The notes below the pieces were generated by a model. That model was not told the origin of the DNA and ran no database searches. It saw only the letters and a list, made by a program, of their open reading frames with translations. This document shows positions 2,813-10,200 of a stretch of DNA of 20,150 bases, piece after piece. The DNA is from a virus. Position 1 is the stretch's first letter. Every line of letters begins with the position of its first letter. The translations under genes were made by a program, and so were the position numbers. The stretch covers positions 1-20,150 of the IMG/VR virus record IMGVR_UViG_3300033985_000038; one strand, given 5' to 3'.

Positions 2813-4828
2813 ATGGCAAGTTTTAATAACACAATTATCACAAAGAAAGGTCATGCTTTAATAGCAAAAATAGTTGCCGGAACAGCAACACCAAACTTTA
2901 CAAAAATCAGAACTTCAGATTATCAATACCCAAGTGGAACTAATTTTGAAGAACTAACCAGTCTTTCAAGTATAAAACAGACAACGGATGTTGCTAATGT
3001 AACAAAAGTTTCCCCTGCTAAAATTAGAGTAAGTGGGGTTTTCACAAATGCTGCCTTGGAAGCAGGTTATTATGTTAGAAATATTGGACTTTATGCAGTT
3101 GACCCACAGGAAGGGGAAATTCTTTATTCAATAACCACTGCAATTGAAGCGGATTGGATGCCCCCACAAGGTGGAATATCAGCTTCCAGTATTTTGGTTG
3201 ACATTGAAACAGTTGTTGGTAATGCTGACAATGTGAATATTACAGTCAATCCAAATGCAACTGCAACTGTTGAAATGGTCAATAATTTAGTTGCTGAAAT
3301 AGCTGATGTTAAAGGGTTCATTGGTTATACTGAAAATGATATTGTTGGTGTTGAAGTGGATTTTAAGAATAAAAAGTTTACAAGGCTTGCTAGTGCAGTA
3401 AATAAAACTCCTGGTGCTGATTTTGACAGCATTAAAGCTTTTGGCGGTAGAAGAAGATGTAACCTTGCTGATGATGGAACAGTAAAAGCTTATTATGGTG
3501 AACCAGGATATATTGAAAATGGTTCAAATGGTCAAGTAATGGTTGAACAACCAAAATTTTATTACAAGGTTGTTCCTTTAGAAATTGAACCTATTGCTGA
3601 TTATGCTGAAGTAAATACCTTTAAAATAACAGCAGGATGTAGCACCAGCGGTGATTTAACAATAACTCTTAATGGTGTTAATTTTACGGTTGCTGTTACA
3701 GCAGGTGATGATATAAATACTGTTGCGTCTAAAATAAGAAGTGCAACTTTTAATGGCTGGACAACAAGCGGAAGCGGTGACAGTGTAATATTTACCTGCA
3801 ATGAAACAGGTGTAAAAACAACCGGAACATTTAATGGCGGTTCAACTGGTGTTACTGCGATAGTGACAAAAACTGTTGCTGGTGGAAAAAGCAAAGGTTA
3901 CCACATGAGAAAAGCGAGATATTATATTTCTGATACACCAAAGGTTGGCTTTAAGGTTCATCCTGCTTTTGTTAGAAATGGGGTTGAAGTTGATAAGATT
4001 TATTTATCAGCATATGAAGGCAGTATTTATGATGAATCGGCAGGAACCTATTTATTAGCTGATGAACAAATTGCTGATTTTAATGCAGATAAGCTTTCTT
4101 CAATTGCTTATGCTAAACCAGCAAGCGGATTAACTCAAAACCTTACAAGGGCAAATACAAGAAAGCTTGCTAATAACAGGGGAACTGGATGGCAAATTTC
4201 TGATGTTTTATCTGCCGCTGTAACCCAATTACTTTTCATTATTGAATATGCTTCATTTAATATGCAATCAAATATAGGTTTAGGTGTTGTAAGCAAAACT
4301 GATGACGGTTCAACCAATATGAGTGAACTTACAGGTGCAACAACCAACCTTGGAAATGCTTCAGGAATGGCTGCTGGAACAAATGGATTGGTTTCCGTCA
4401 CATATCGTGGTGAAGAAAACTTTTGGGGCAATATTTGGTATTGGGTTGACGGATTAAATATTGAAATTGGTGGCGGTGTTCATGATGCCTGGTATACTGA
4501 TTATGGTTTTACGGATAATATTAAGACTTCACCATATAAAAATACCGGGTTTACATTAGCAAAAAGAAACGGTTATGTTTCAGCAATCGGTTGGTCAGAA
4601 ACATGTGATTTCTTATTCTTACCAACAAAAACCCTTGGTGATTCAAGTTTGCCTATTGGTGATTATTTTTATCAAGACCATGCTTCATCCGGCTGGCGGG
4701 TTTCTCGGTTGGGCGGTCCGTGGAGTGGTGGTTCTAATGCGGGCGGTTTCTTTTGGAGTGTGAATAGTTCGTCGGCTGCTCGTTATCGTTACGTCGGCGG
4801 GCGGCTGCTGTATGTACCCCAAAGCTAA
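2813..4828 (+). CDS. Tail fibre with DGR-diversified C-type-lectin-like C-terminus
   Basis: 671 residues, ATG 2813 behind an AAAGGTGG site. Residues 1 to about 155 resemble the N-terminal attachment domain of phage tail-collar fibres (NNTIITKKGHALIAKI, ... AGYYVRNIGLYAVDP). Residues about 268-360 are a separate Thr/Gly/Ser-rich domain (SGDLTITLNGVNFTVAVTAG, ASKIRSATFNGWTTSG) that looks like an inserted beta-sandwich module. The last third (FWGNIWYWVDGLN, GWSETCDFLFLP, GDYFYQD, then NAGGFFWSVN) fits the formylglycine-enzyme/C-type-lectin fold typical of DGR target proteins. Residues about 629-668 are the variable region. It probably binds the host receptor. The VR-TR pairing proves the DGR role; the exact receptor role is inferred. 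Confidence 0.93.
   Translation: MASFNNTIITKKGHALIAKIVAGTATPNFTKIRTSDYQYPSGTNFEELTSLSSIKQTTDVANVTKVSPAKIRVSGVFTNAALEAGYYVRNIGLYAVDPQEGEILYSITTAIEADWMPPQGGISASSILVDIETVVGNADNVNITVNPNATATVEMVNNLVAEIADVKGFIGYTENDIVGVEVDFKNKKFTRLASAVNKTPGADFDSIKAFGGRRRCNLADDGTVKAYYGEPGYIENGSNGQVMVEQPKFYYKVVPLEIEPIADYAEVNTFKITAGCSTSGDLTITLNGVNFTVAVTAGDDINTVASKIRSATFNGWTTSGSGDSVIFTCNETGVKTTGTFNGGSTGVTAIVTKTVAGGKSKGYHMRKARYYISDTPKVGFKVHPAFVRNGVEVDKIYLSAYEGSIYDESAGTYLLADEQIADFNADKLSSIAYAKPASGLTQNLTRANTRKLANNRGTGWQISDVLSAAVTQLLFIIEYASFNMQSNIGLGVVSKTDDGSTNMSELTGATTNLGNASGMAAGTNGLVSVTYRGEENFWGNIWYWVDGLNIEIGGGVHDAWYTDYGFTDNIKTSPYKNTGFTLAKRNGYVSAIGWSETCDFLFLPTKTLGDSSLPIGDYFYQDHASSGWRVSRLGGPWSGGSNAGGFFWSVNSSSAARYRYVGGRLLYVPQS
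4697..4814 (+). repeat. DGR variable region (VR)
   Basis: 118 bp in the 3' end of the fibre gene that align without gaps to the template at 4886-5003. There are 27 mismatches and all fall at template adenines: by my hand count 21 A to G, 4 A to T and 2 A to C. No template C, G or T is changed. Homology stops abruptly at base 4814, 14 bases before the end of the gene. Confidence 0.95.
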
Positions 4829-4850
4829 TTGACAATTTATGGAATATTAT

Positions 4851-5041
4851 GGGCAAGTAAAAAGAATATTTTTTTTTACTTATTTCAGGTTTCTCAATTA
4901 GGCAGTCAATGGAATAATGGTTCTAATGCAGGCAGTTTCTATTGGAATGTGAATAATTCGTCAGCTAATCGTAATCGTAACATCAGCAGGCAGCTACTAA
5001 ATGCACTTAAAATAAATTTATATTGTGCTTTTTACTTGCCC
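4851..5041 (+). ncRNA. Putative DGR template RNA core bracketed by a 14-bp inverted repeat
   Basis: GGGCAAGTAAAAAG at 4851-4864 is the perfect reverse complement of CTTTTTACTTGCCC at 5028-5041, so the RNA spanning the TR can close into one long stem with the whole template in its loop. The small hairpin TGCC-TCTT-GGCA follows at 5042-5053. DGR template RNAs are known to need structured sequence around the TR for priming and RT binding. That this stem plays that role is inferred, and the transcript ends are unknown. Confidence 0.55.
4886..5003 (+). repeat. DGR template repeat (TR)
   Basis: 118 bp non-coding donor copy between the fibre gene and the reverse transcriptase. It has about 37 adenines, many in AAT/AAC codon positions of the target frame (for example GGAATAATGG and CGTAATCGTAAC). 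Mutating those adenines yields the widest residue choice without making a stop. An open frame crosses it but is not a gene. The TR lies inside a larger potential stem-loop (see the flanking inverted repeat). Confidence 0.95.
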
Positions 5042-5086
5042 TGCCTCTTGGCAAAACATAGAAATAAAACTAATCCTGTATTGGTA

Positions 5087-5116
5087 GGTTTATTGAAAAT
5101 TAATATTCAATAAACC
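5087..5116 (+). other. 11-bp hairpin between TR and reverse transcriptase gene
   Basis: GGTTTATTGAA (5087-5097) and TTCAATAAACC (5106-5116) form a perfect 11-bp stem with an 8-base loop. It lies about 45 bases before the RT start. It lacks a proper T-run, so it is a poor terminator. It may be part of the template RNA or may set the RT translation level. Confidence 0.5.
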
Positions 5117-5162
5117 GTTTGAAGATTCGGGAATAGTGCATACAACAATTGGTGGGAAGTCT

Positions 5163-6263
5163 ATGAAAAGATACGGTAATTTATATACTAAAATTTATGA
5201 CATGGAAAATCTAAAGCTTGCACATAAAAATGCAAGAAAAGGAAAGGGGTGGTATAAAGAAGTTAAACTTGTCAATGCAAATGAAGAATATTACTTAAAG
5301 AAGCTTCAGGAATCACTAGTAAATAAGACTTATCAAACTTCTGAATACGAAACCTTTCTGAAGAAAGACGGTGAAAAAGAACGGGAAATTTATAAATTAC
5401 CTTATTTTCCTGATAGAATTTGCCAATGGGCAATTATGCAGGTCATAGAACCCATTTTAATAAATAATTTTACTAAAGACACCTATTCAGCTATTCCAGG
5501 AAGGGGTATTCATCAAGTTGTTAAGCGGATAAGGGGTTATTATAAAGAAATAGATGGAAAACAAGTATATGTTCCAGGTATTTTTATGAAAGACCCTTAT
5601 GGAACCCAATACACTTTGAAATTTGATATTAAAAAGTATTATCCAAATATTGACCATGACATTTTGAAAGCCAAATACAGAAGGATTTTTAAGGATGATG
5701 ACCTTCTTTGGCTACTTGATGAAATTATTGATTCAACCCCTGGTGGTGTGGGAATTCCTATTGGAAATTATCTTTCACAATATAGCGGAAACTTTTATCT
5801 TTCATCCTTTGACCATTGGATTAAAGAAGTTAAAAAGGTTAAGTATTACTTCAGATATATGGATGACATTGTAATATTCGGAAGCAATAAAGAAGAACTG
5901 CACAAATTAAGACTTGATATTGAAGAATATTTAAGGGATGAATTAAAGCTTAAAATCAAGGAAAATTGGCAAGTATTTCCCACATTTATTAGGGGTGTTG
6001 ATTTTGTTGGATATAGATTTTTCTTTGATTATACTTTATTGAGAAAATCAACTTGTAAGAACTTCAAGAAAAAGATGAACAAGATTAAAAAGAAATGCTT
6101 CAGCGGTGGACAAATGAATTATTCTGAATGGTGTTCAATCAATTCTTATAAAGGTTGGTTAATGTGGTGTGATAGTTACAGGTTAAGTAAGAAATACATT
6201 GAACCAATCCAACCTTTTGCTGATGAATACTATGAAAAATATGTTAAAAGAAAGGTGGATTAA
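5163..6263 (+). CDS. DGR reverse transcriptase
   Basis: 366 residues from ATG 5163, chosen because GGTGGGA (5151-5157) sits 5 bases upstream; an in-frame GTG at 5136 has no good site. RT motifs are in order: LKFDIKKYYPNID near residue 155 (catalytic Asp), IPIGNYLSQ near 198-206, and FRYMDDIVIFGS with the YMDD catalytic pair at 232-235. The IGN..SQ form of motif 4, in place of QG...SP, is the signature of DGR reverse transcriptases. It copies the template RNA with adenine-specific errors, and the cDNA replaces the VR. No maturase or endonuclease domain is seen. It sits inside the tail operon, between fibre and small tail genes. Confidence 0.95.
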   Translation: MKRYGNLYTKIYDMENLKLAHKNARKGKGWYKEVKLVNANEEYYLKKLQESLVNKTYQTSEYETFLKKDGEKEREIYKLPYFPDRICQWAIMQVIEPILINNFTKDTYSAIPGRGIHQVVKRIRGYYKEIDGKQVYVPGIFMKDPYGTQYTLKFDIKKYYPNIDHDILKAKYRRIFKDDDLLWLLDEIIDSTPGGVGIPIGNYLSQYSGNFYLSSFDHWIKEVKKVKYYFRYMDDIVIFGSNKEELHKLRLDIEEYLRDELKLKIKENWQVFPTFIRGVDFVGYRFFFDYTLLRKSTCKNFKKKMNKIKKKCFSGGQMNYSEWCSINSYKGWLMWCDSYRLSKKYIEPIQPFADEYYEKYVKRKVD

Positions 6264-6264
6264 A

Positions 6265-6522
6265 ATGAAGGATTATGGAAGGGTAAGAAGCACAATAAGC
6301 CCAAAACCCATGATTATTGATGAATTCAGTGTATGGATTTATAAAAACATCACTGAAGTCAGTGAAAATGTTGGTGAAGAAAATGAATTCATTGGTTATG
6401 AATATGACATGATTCAGTATGAAAAAGATGAATATATTGAATTACTGTCAGAACAGAATGAAACATTTTTAGAAACCCTGGACACTTTTATGTCAGAAAT
6501 GATTCCATCTTTAATGATGTAG
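6265..6522 (+). CDS. Small acidic phage tail-region protein
   Basis: 85 residues from ATG 6265, with AAAGGTGG about 6 bases upstream inside the end of the RT gene. An earlier in-frame ATG (6199) lies within the RT coding sequence and has no site. The sequence starts MKDYGRVRSTISPKPMIIDE and has FSVWIYKNI, IGYEYDMIQYEKDEYIELL and a C-terminal helix. I recall similar proteins beside XkdX-like genes in clostridial phages, with no known function. It does not look like the helical-bundle Avd accessory protein of DGRs, being shorter and mostly strand-like at the start. Confidence 0.75.
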   Translation: MKDYGRVRSTISPKPMIIDEFSVWIYKNITEVSENVGEENEFIGYEYDMIQYEKDEYIELLSEQNETFLETLDTFMSEMIPSLMM

Positions 6523-8665: not shown

Positions 8666-8681
8666 TTATTTGGTAGGCAAA
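8624..8681 (-). terminator. Hairpins at the end of the integrase gene
   Basis: TTTGCCTACCA (8639-8649) and TGGTAGGCAAA (8671-8681) form a perfect 11-bp stem across the integrase stop codon, with a loop of about 21 bases. Next in the minus direction is a small stem (ATCAA 8624-8628 with TTGAT 8635-8639) leading into ATATTTTTATT. Together they could end integrase transcription. The large loop makes the first stem equally likely to be a protein site tied to attP. Confidence 0.45.
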
Positions 8682-9901
8682 TTATGATTGACTGCATTTT
8701 CAAATATTTCAACTGATTGTTCAGCCATTTTTTCAGTTGAATGGGTGTATGTTCCAAGGGTGGTTTCAATGTTGGCATGACCAAGTCTTGTTTGAACATC
8801 CTTGATATTTGCACCATTTTCAATCAGGGTTGTTGCGTGGGTATGTCTTAGTGAATGGAAGTTGAATAATATTCCCAAGCTATAATGAATTACCCTGGAA
8901 GCATATTTGAAGGTGTCAGGAGTTACCATGTCTCCATCTTCTTTGGTGCAAACCATGTTTATTGGTTGCATTACACCTGCATCAACTGAAACAGGAAGGG
9001 AATATATTCTTCTTAATTTTTCATTCCCATCCATTTCTTCAACTTCATACTGCTGAATATAATGCTGACCATATTTCAAGCGATTTTCAGCTTGCCATTT
9101 CTTATGCTTCTTTAAAGCATCAATCAAAGTTTTTCCAATCTTTATATTCCTGACTGATGATTCTGTTTTAGTAGAACCGAAATACCAATTCTTATTCCTC
9201 TTATATAGAATCTTATTTACATCAATTGTTCCTTTTTCCAAGTCAATATCATCCCATGTTAGACCAGTAACTTCACCAATTCGGCAGCCGGTATAATATC
9301 CAATCATGATTGGAATATAAAAAGTTGTTCCAGGTGGGAATCTTTCAATAATTCTTTGGAATTCATCTGTTGTAATAACCTTATGGTCAGTTTCAAGCTT
9401 TGAATGTTCATACTTTGGATATTTTACATACTGCATTGGGTTTTCTCTTATAAATTTACTTGGATGCACTGCATACTTTAATGAACCACTTAAAACCGTC
9501 ATGATGTTTGTAAGATGATTTTTACTCATTCCACTTAAATATTTACCATTAATAAATTCCTGAAGTACAGCAGGGGTTAAGGATTTAAGCTTATAAACAC
9601 CAAGAGCAGGTTTAATGTGATTTTTAATTATAGCTTCATAACCACATTGTGTATTATATTTACAATTAACCTGCACATAGTTCTTGAACCAGTAATCCAT
9701 ATAATCAGCAACAGATATTTCACTTGGTTCAAAGTGCAATCCTGCATTTTCATATTCTTGAAGTGCAATTCTTAAAGCTGCTTCAGCTTCTTTCTTGGTT
9801 CTACCACCAACCCTTTCAATTCTTTTTCTTTTACCATCAACACTGGAAGCTTCAAAGGAATAATACCATTTGTTCCCACGCTTCCTTACATGACCTGCCA
9901 T
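8666..9901 (-). CDS. int: Tyrosine site-specific integrase
   Basis: 411 residues from ATG at 9899-9901, chosen because AAAGGGTG precedes it and MAGHVRKRGNKWYYSFE is the usual family start; a start 36 bases earlier has no site. An AP2-like arm-binding N-terminus (KWYYSFEASSVDGKRKR) and a SAM-like core-binding domain (SVADYMDYWFKNYV) precede the catalytic domain: Arg207 in GYYTGCRIGEVTGLTW, Lys245 in GSTKTESS, His349 and Arg352 in FHSLRHTHATT, His375 in RLGHANIETT and nucleophile Tyr385 in GTYTHST. All catalytic residues are present. It integrates and, with the excisionase-like protein at 12725, excises the phage. The gene sits beside the attP-like region, opposite in strand to the late genes. 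Confidence 0.96.
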   Translation of the reverse strand: MAGHVRKRGNKWYYSFEASSVDGKRKRIERVGGRTKKEAEAALRIALQEYENAGLHFEPSEISVADYMDYWFKNYVQVNCKYNTQCGYEAIIKNHIKPALGVYKLKSLTPAVLQEFINGKYLSGMSKNHLTNIMTVLSGSLKYAVHPSKFIRENPMQYVKYPKYEHSKLETDHKVITTDEFQRIIERFPPGTTFYIPIMIGYYTGCRIGEVTGLTWDDIDLEKGTIDVNKILYKRNKNWYFGSTKTESSVRNIKIGKTLIDALKKHKKWQAENRLKYGQHYIQQYEVEEMDGNEKLRRIYSLPVSVDAGVMQPINMVCTKEDGDMVTPDTFKYASRVIHYSLGILFNFHSLRHTHATTLIENGANIKDVQTRLGHANIETTLGTYTHSTEKMAEQSVEIFENAVNHNLPTK

Positions 9902-9925
9902 ATTATCACCCTTTCTTTTAATTTT

Positions 9926-10200
9926 ATCTTGAACCATCTTGAACTATCTTGAACCAATCTTGAACCGTAACAAACCTTTATTTTATAAGGGTTTTATTAA
10001 TTTGAGTTCAAGAAGTTCAAGATAAATTACTATATTATAAGATTATTTTTATAGATATTTTTTTTAATAAGTATTTTTTTTTTAATTTTTACTTTTATTA
10101 ATAAATATATAATTTATCTTGAACCATCTTGAACCTTCCCATAAAATAAGGCTTTTCATCTTGAACCAAATCTTGAACCATCTTGAACTTATATTGAACC
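9926..10200. repeat. Iteron-like ATCTTGAACC repeat field flanking a very AT-rich core
   Basis: Ten-base repeats of consensus ATCTTGAACC (reverse GGTTCAAGAT) occur at 9926, 9936, 9946, 9957, 10116, 10126, 10158 and 10170, plus the variants ATCTTGAACT at 10180 and ATATTGAACC at 10191. Two copies in the other orientation start at 10005 and 10014. Spacing is mostly 10-12 bases, about one helical turn. Between the clusters, 10021-10115 is almost only A and T. It lies in the 300-base gap between the integrase and the PH-like gene. It could be an operator field for integrase control, a replication origin or a partition site; I cannot decide which. Confidence 0.8.

Follow-up and report, generated by a model that had tools for sequence, protein, structure and literature searches.

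The stretch of DNA analyzed here (the window) is an entire IMG/VR virus record of 20,150 bases, in which a template repeat is enclosed by a perfect inverted repeat. This arrangement raises the question of whether the bracket is a genuine structural element of the template RNA and, if so, what it does for the reverse transcriptase (RT) encoded nearby. Diversity-generating retroelements (DGRs) are powerful natural systems for diversifying proteins in a targeted manner, and the way in which the limits of their template RNA are set matters both for DGR biology and for engineering.

The window carries a DGR. The template repeat (TR) and the variable repeat (VR) differ only at TR adenines (27/27 mismatches), a DGR-type RT gene adjoins the TR (RVT_1, 8ub7_A, phrog_1423), and the VR is located at the 3′ end of the target gene (VR 4697-4814 within ORF 2813-4828). 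The components of the element are as follows:

2813..4828, + strand: target gene encoding a phage tail fibre protein, with the VR at its 3′ end (PF12571 slightly below the cut-off; phrog_5302 tail protein, 4e-137)
4697..4814, + strand: variable repeat (VR), 27/27 mismatches to the TR at TR adenines
4886..5003, + strand: template repeat (TR), from the TR/VR comparison (27 mismatches, all at TR adenines)
5163..6263, + strand: DGR-type RT gene, 366 aa (RVT_1; nearest solved chain 8ub7_A, 4e-31; phrog_1423)

The solved chain 8ub7_A is presumably the BPP-1 bRT of the RNP structures. The accessory protein Avd is present in BPP-1 and is not known to be universal among DGRs, so it was not treated as defining. 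No match to bAvd (PF22296) was obtained in the window or in the records of 12 relatives (which are possibly fragments), and a tblastn search with BPP-1 Avd against the 65 loci described below gave nothing. The small gene directly following that of the RT (6265-6522), which matches phrog_18126 (function unknown) and has no Pfam match, is a possible accessory gene at this locus, where no Avd was found. A DNA search of a phage collection with the TR region of the window gave no match. Elsewhere in the window, perfect inverted repeats of 17 bp (8483-8499/8596-8612) and 15 bp (10015-10029/10110-10124) flank a predicted integrase gene (8666-9937, so called from a reading of the ORF alone).

According to the original prediction, the TR is bracketed by a perfect 14-bp inverted repeat, and this proved correct: segments 4851-4864 and 5028-5041 are exact reverse complements, with the TR (4886-5003) inside. 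The bracket and the adjoining parts of the spacer are listed below:

4851..4864, + strand: left arm of the template-closing helix, GGGCAAGTAAAAAG (exact reverse complement of the right arm; covariation in relatives)
5028..5041, + strand: right arm of the template-closing helix, CTTTTTACTTGCCC (its final 5 nt coincide with positions 1-5 of Rfam RT-17, unpaired in that model)
5037..5145, + strand: Rfam RF03020, RT-17 RNA (48.0 bits, gathering score 40.4)
5042..5053, + strand: P1 hairpin UGCC(UCUU)GGCA, directly abutting the right arm (two-sided changes at 3/4 pairs, 100% of cells paired)
5069..5137, + strand: P2 hairpin of the spacer, with its consensus core at about 5074-5132 (two-sided changes at 7 of 12 consensus pairs)

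The left arm lies between the stop codon of the target gene and the TR, starting 37 nt downstream of the VR end, and the two arms are approximately 160 nt apart. The window exceeds the gathering threshold of RT-17 (RF03020; 48.0 vs 40.4 bits), and Phage_DGR (RF03022) was not among the matches for positions 4600-5400 even at E values of up to 1. The Rfam RT-17 model begins within the right arm, whose last 5 nt it includes but marks as unpaired; the left arm and the TR-closing helix are both absent from it. The second hairpin that had been pointed out, in which GGTTTATTGAA (5087-5097) pairs with TTCAATAAACC (5106-5116) over 11 bp around an 8-nt loop, exists as described, but it is not a separate device: it is the apical stem of P2 (the main stem of RT-17), and P2 is conserved in 25 aligned sequences.

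A perfect pair of at least 14 bp occurred in only 1 of 2,000 second-order Markov sequences of the local 332 nt. The repeat alone is nevertheless not decisive, because the whole window contains three pairs of at least 14 bp within 300 nt, against 0.18 expected. Similarly, the hairpin at 5087-5116 is by itself not significant, since 4.5 stems of at least 11 bp are expected per window. For the last 8 to 14 nt of the right arm, the window offers a single complement, at 4851. The fold of the window was modestly better than that of shuffled sequences (z −1.67, 4/100 as good), and the mean bracket pair probability in unconstrained folding was 0.60. A rival local 9-bp hairpin of the left arm (4855-4863/4873-4881) can form in the window and is not conserved in relatives. 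It is the relatives, and not the length of the repeat, that decide whether the bracket is real.

Relatives of the RT were taken from 23 loci in genomes and 80 in viral contigs. TRs were located by adenine-specific mismatch in 91 of the 104 sequences (103 loci and the window); the 13 sequences without a TR were dropped, and dereplication of the 91 left 65 loci. Rfam was run on the window and on 60 of the 64 other loci (L014, L017, L018 and L019 were left out), and RT-17 (RF03020) was matched at 43 of the 60 relatives' loci, in the same place between TR and RT. The P1 anchors of the 65 loci were set by Rfam (44 loci), by pattern (12) or by hand (9). In the 44 loci, the right arm was fixed by the Rfam match, independently of pairing, and the left partner was sought between the VR and the TR. 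As a control, arms were swapped between loci in 20,000 permutations; this control is conservative, because related loci have arm sequence in common. Loci with RT identity below 55% (22 loci, whose 14 genome records are mostly of the Bacteroidetes group by title) were treated as distant.

The results of this comparison revealed that the bracket is a conserved RNA helix, which compensating changes have maintained in many relatives. Among the 36 Rfam-anchored loci with RT identity of at least 55%, the mean score of a locus's own arms was 26.2, vs 16.4 for exchanged arms (sd 0.57, maximum 19.2 in 20,000 permutations), and in 34 of them (the exceptions being L006 and L086) the bracket was the best complement within 700 nt upstream. 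The own arms also scored higher across all 65 dereplicated loci (25.1 vs 16.8) and in the 22 distant loci (22.4 vs 16.3), and in neither case did any of the 20,000 permutations reach the own score. In the 36-row alignment, 93.6% of bracket cells are paired and 9 of the 11 pairs show two-sided changes, i.e. the compensatory changes in related DGRs by which the original prediction proposed to check the bracket. The whole-structure covariation score of this alignment was 0.533, vs 0.164 after shuffling and 0.052-0.103 after sliding, the signal being lost when the partner was slid by 1 to 3 columns. The window and L027, whose RTs are 98% identical, differ in their arms, and each pair of arms is fully paired. 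The bracket encloses the TR in 65/65 loci, and in unconstrained folding its mean pair probability exceeded 0.5 in 41 of 43 loci.

The form of the helix varies. In distant loci, it often consists of two G-C pairs, a small internal mismatch and then a further helix, and in some relatives it is short (7 bp in L037 and L059). Low predicted bracket pairing (0.11) was found in L039 and L088. At L037, L056, L059, L086, L073 and L077, an extra strong hairpin is present between the TR end and the right arm; it is sometimes terminator-like (a GC-rich stem followed by a T run) and, if it acted as a terminator, the template RNA would end short of the right arm.

A peculiar template was observed in L029 (2677-2990; 84% RT identity). 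Its TR is adenine-poor (19 in 130 nt, vs 37 in 118 nt in the TR of the window) and carries VR-like changes at sites that are usually adenines, as though mutagenized cDNA made from this template had been written back over it. The bracket arms are still perfect over 13 bp.

The spacer of BPP-1 matches the other Rfam class, Phage_DGR (RF03022; 104.7 bits). We found 67 BPP-1-type loci, sought a TR in 63 and found one in 54, which were dereplicated to 40; one of these (L170; 36% identity, no GGTCAGC) was removed prior to testing, leaving 39 loci. The original prediction regarded a stem closing the TR as a distinct layout. This view has to be abandoned, as all of the BPP-1-type loci tested (39/39) form this clamp too, and at the corresponding position next to a small hairpin (duplex energy 18.7 kcal/mol for own vs 14.3 kcal/mol for exchanged arms, 0/20,000). 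An earlier anchoring, with 15 of the 39 loci usable, gave 19.25 for own and 15.26 for exchanged arms (0/20,000). The left arm of the BPP-1 type is located just before the TR, in the last ~20 nt of avd, while the right arm follows the GGTCA motif immediately and is itself immediately followed by a UGC(UUCG)GCA-type hairpin. In BPP-1, the A of this motif occupies position 56 of the spacer, which we take to be the priming adenine.

The relatives of BPP-1 support pairing of avd about −20..−8 with the part of the spacer that immediately follows GGTCA; the 30 nt preceding the TR gave a z of 6.8 against the first 140 nt of the spacer. A 16-bp candidate for the bracket of BPP-1 (avd −71..−56 with Sp 65-80; z 1.9 for this region) was rejected, the relatives supporting the other helix instead. 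A covarying helix between the upstream flank and the spacer, located directly 5′ of a small hairpin, was found in both the RT-17 type and the BPP-1 type, and the bracket and the P1 hairpin look like one core common to both RNA classes. The TR-closing helix appears to be a regular component of DGRs that has largely gone unannotated. No description of it was recognised in the literature searched, the scope of which did not extend to the primary BPP-1 RNA papers (2017, 2018, 2021, 2025), and the helix may well be visible in the solved BPP-1 RNP.

What the helix does can be approached from BPP-1. For this DGR, a figure legend of one report (PMC12875486) attributes recruitment of the RT complex to the spacer, the priming of cDNA synthesis at the TR 3′ junction to an adenine inside the spacer, and the termination of reverse transcription to a motif in the avd 3′ end. 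We consider it probable that the bracket is a core DGR RNA element, which ties the template ends together beside the RT-binding spacer, placing the 3′ end for priming and blocking the RT at the 5′ end. Pairing of the arms would loop out the whole TR and set its base beside the spacer fold, which, by analogy with BPP-1, may be bound by the RT. The clamp would then bring the TR 3′ end to the enzyme, where an RNA duplex could prime cDNA synthesis, and the left strand, held in the helix, would act as the enzyme's stop at the template end, so that only the TR and short flanks would be copied.

A stop at the left arm is proposed because the left arm of the BPP-1 type lies where the termination motif in the avd 3′ end is reported (PMC12875486). 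In Rfam-anchored loci, the left arm is located 7 to 86 nt upstream of the TR, and a stop there would leave a tail without VR homology. By analogy with BPP-1, the suggestion in the original prediction that the helix helps to set the template ends is plausible; we infer from its position that the clamp both places the template and stops the enzyme.

Several other explanations of the bracket were considered. When G-U and A-C were scored alike, the 65 helices contained 31 G-U vs 6 A-C (p=4e-5), and exchanged arms under the same symmetric scoring gave 510 G-U and 462 A-C. Because G-U exceeds A-C, it is the RNA of the + (coding) strand that does the pairing. Such a bias would not be produced by pairing in DNA, which makes it extremely improbable that the inverted repeat is a DNA element, extruded or bound near the VR like the BPP-1 target-recognition hairpin. 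The left arm does lie on the VR-downstream side, where DNA hairpins of DGRs are reported (PMC3240598), but the distance of about 160 nt between the arms also argues against a DNA element, as does the placement of the right arm, which is set by the RNA hairpin P1 and not by the VR. An RNA helix could instead regulate the translation or termination of a transcript reading through from the tail fibre gene into the RT gene, with no bearing on the template. The location of the arms between two genes of the same strand and the terminator-like hairpins between the TR and the right arm in some relatives would suit this role, which we nevertheless judge very unlikely: the TR is enclosed in all 65 loci, and the place beside P1 is kept though the upstream gene differs (avd in the BPP-1 type, the tail fibre gene here).

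It is also conceivable, although in our opinion rather unlikely, that the helix is purely architectural, assembling the spacer RNA with the RT and protecting the TR RNA while taking no part in the start or stop of cDNA synthesis. In favour of this explanation, the right arm abuts P1 of the RT-17 fold, and an arm-to-TR distance varying from 7 to 86 nt is odd for a precise stop. This explanation is opposed by the position of the left arm in the BPP-1 type, at the avd 3′ end, the site of the termination motif reported in PMC12875486. We prefer the reading in which the helix, besides joining the template to the spacer, sets the template ends.

A weaker lead concerns a candidate pairing between the 3′ ends of the TR and the spacer, formed in the window by two segments:

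5001..5007, + strand: segment ATGCACT at the TR 3′ end, candidate partner of the spacer 3′ end (permutation tests; mixed control)
5135..5141, + strand: segment AGTGCAT at the spacer 3′ end, candidate priming duplex (exact complement of 5001-5007; mixed control)

The two ends change together in L005, L064, L088, L089 and L097, and the pairing gave z values of 4.7 and 6.1 in two permutation tests (0/20,000 each). In the 22 distant loci, it was weaker (687/20,000 and 430/20,000 in the two tests), and across the 65 loci it showed no RNA-type bias (G-U 11 vs A-C 28). In 27 of the 65 loci, the putative duplex begins immediately 3′ of the last variable adenine, vs 13 expected (at most 20 in 100 permutations); among 43 loci, it does so in 24, vs 16 expected (at most 22). 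Together with the bracket, it would form a pseudoknot. Pairing of the TR 3′ end with the segment just 5′ of the right arm was tried in RT-17 loci and rejected (no covariation, z −1.1), while the BPP-1 type shows a weak pairing of the TR end with the stretch immediately preceding the priming adenine (z 2.9, 59/20,000).

We tentatively propose, with more doubt than confidence, that the two Rfam classes share the core composed of the TR-closing helix and the small hairpin and that the TR 3′ end of RT-17 elements pairs with the spacer 3′ end, and not with the segment preceding the right arm. This would create the pseudoknot and move priming to the spacer 3′ end, and the mutagenized stretch would begin just upstream of the duplex.

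Two short motifs are enriched at the inner edge of the bracket: TGTGA on the right side (12/43 loci, 0.5 expected) and CTGAT on the left side (12/43 loci, 0.8 expected). TGTGA(A) just before the right arm faces (G)CTGAT just after the left arm in the manner of an internal loop (e.g. in L038, L056 and L044), and the pair may be a further motif or a homologue of the BPP-1 priming site.

A recodable helix common to two RNA classes offers a direct handle on the template RNA, as its arms are exchangeable in pairs. The Rfam models of RT-17 and Phage_DGR could be extended 5′ across the TR, and the RNAs of RTs without a recognised Avd could be found and reconstituted with the right ends.

Among the closest known systems is the RNA of the BPP-1-type DGRs, which resembles that of the window in having a helix of ~12 bp, pairing of the sequence preceding the TR with the spacer, and a right arm directly before a small hairpin. 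The BPP-1 type differs in that its helix usually contains a one-base bulge, its left arm lies inside the coding end of avd, its right arm is immediately preceded by the GGTCA priming motif and it has an Avd gene; in the window, bAvd gave no match, and the Rfam match is to RT-17 instead of Phage_DGR. The DNA hairpin downstream of the VR of BPP-1 is likewise an inverted repeat near a VR, but it is local and adjoins the VR, whereas the helix of the window spans the TR and behaves as RNA. In retron ncRNAs, the two ends pair (a1/a2) and close the reverse-transcribed region near the RT gene; the bracket may be considered analogous in this respect. Unlike in retrons, the RT of the window is of the DGR type and the sequence that is copied is a TR, to which a VR corresponds. 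The finding is real, but it is part of a known kind of RNA, not a new device.
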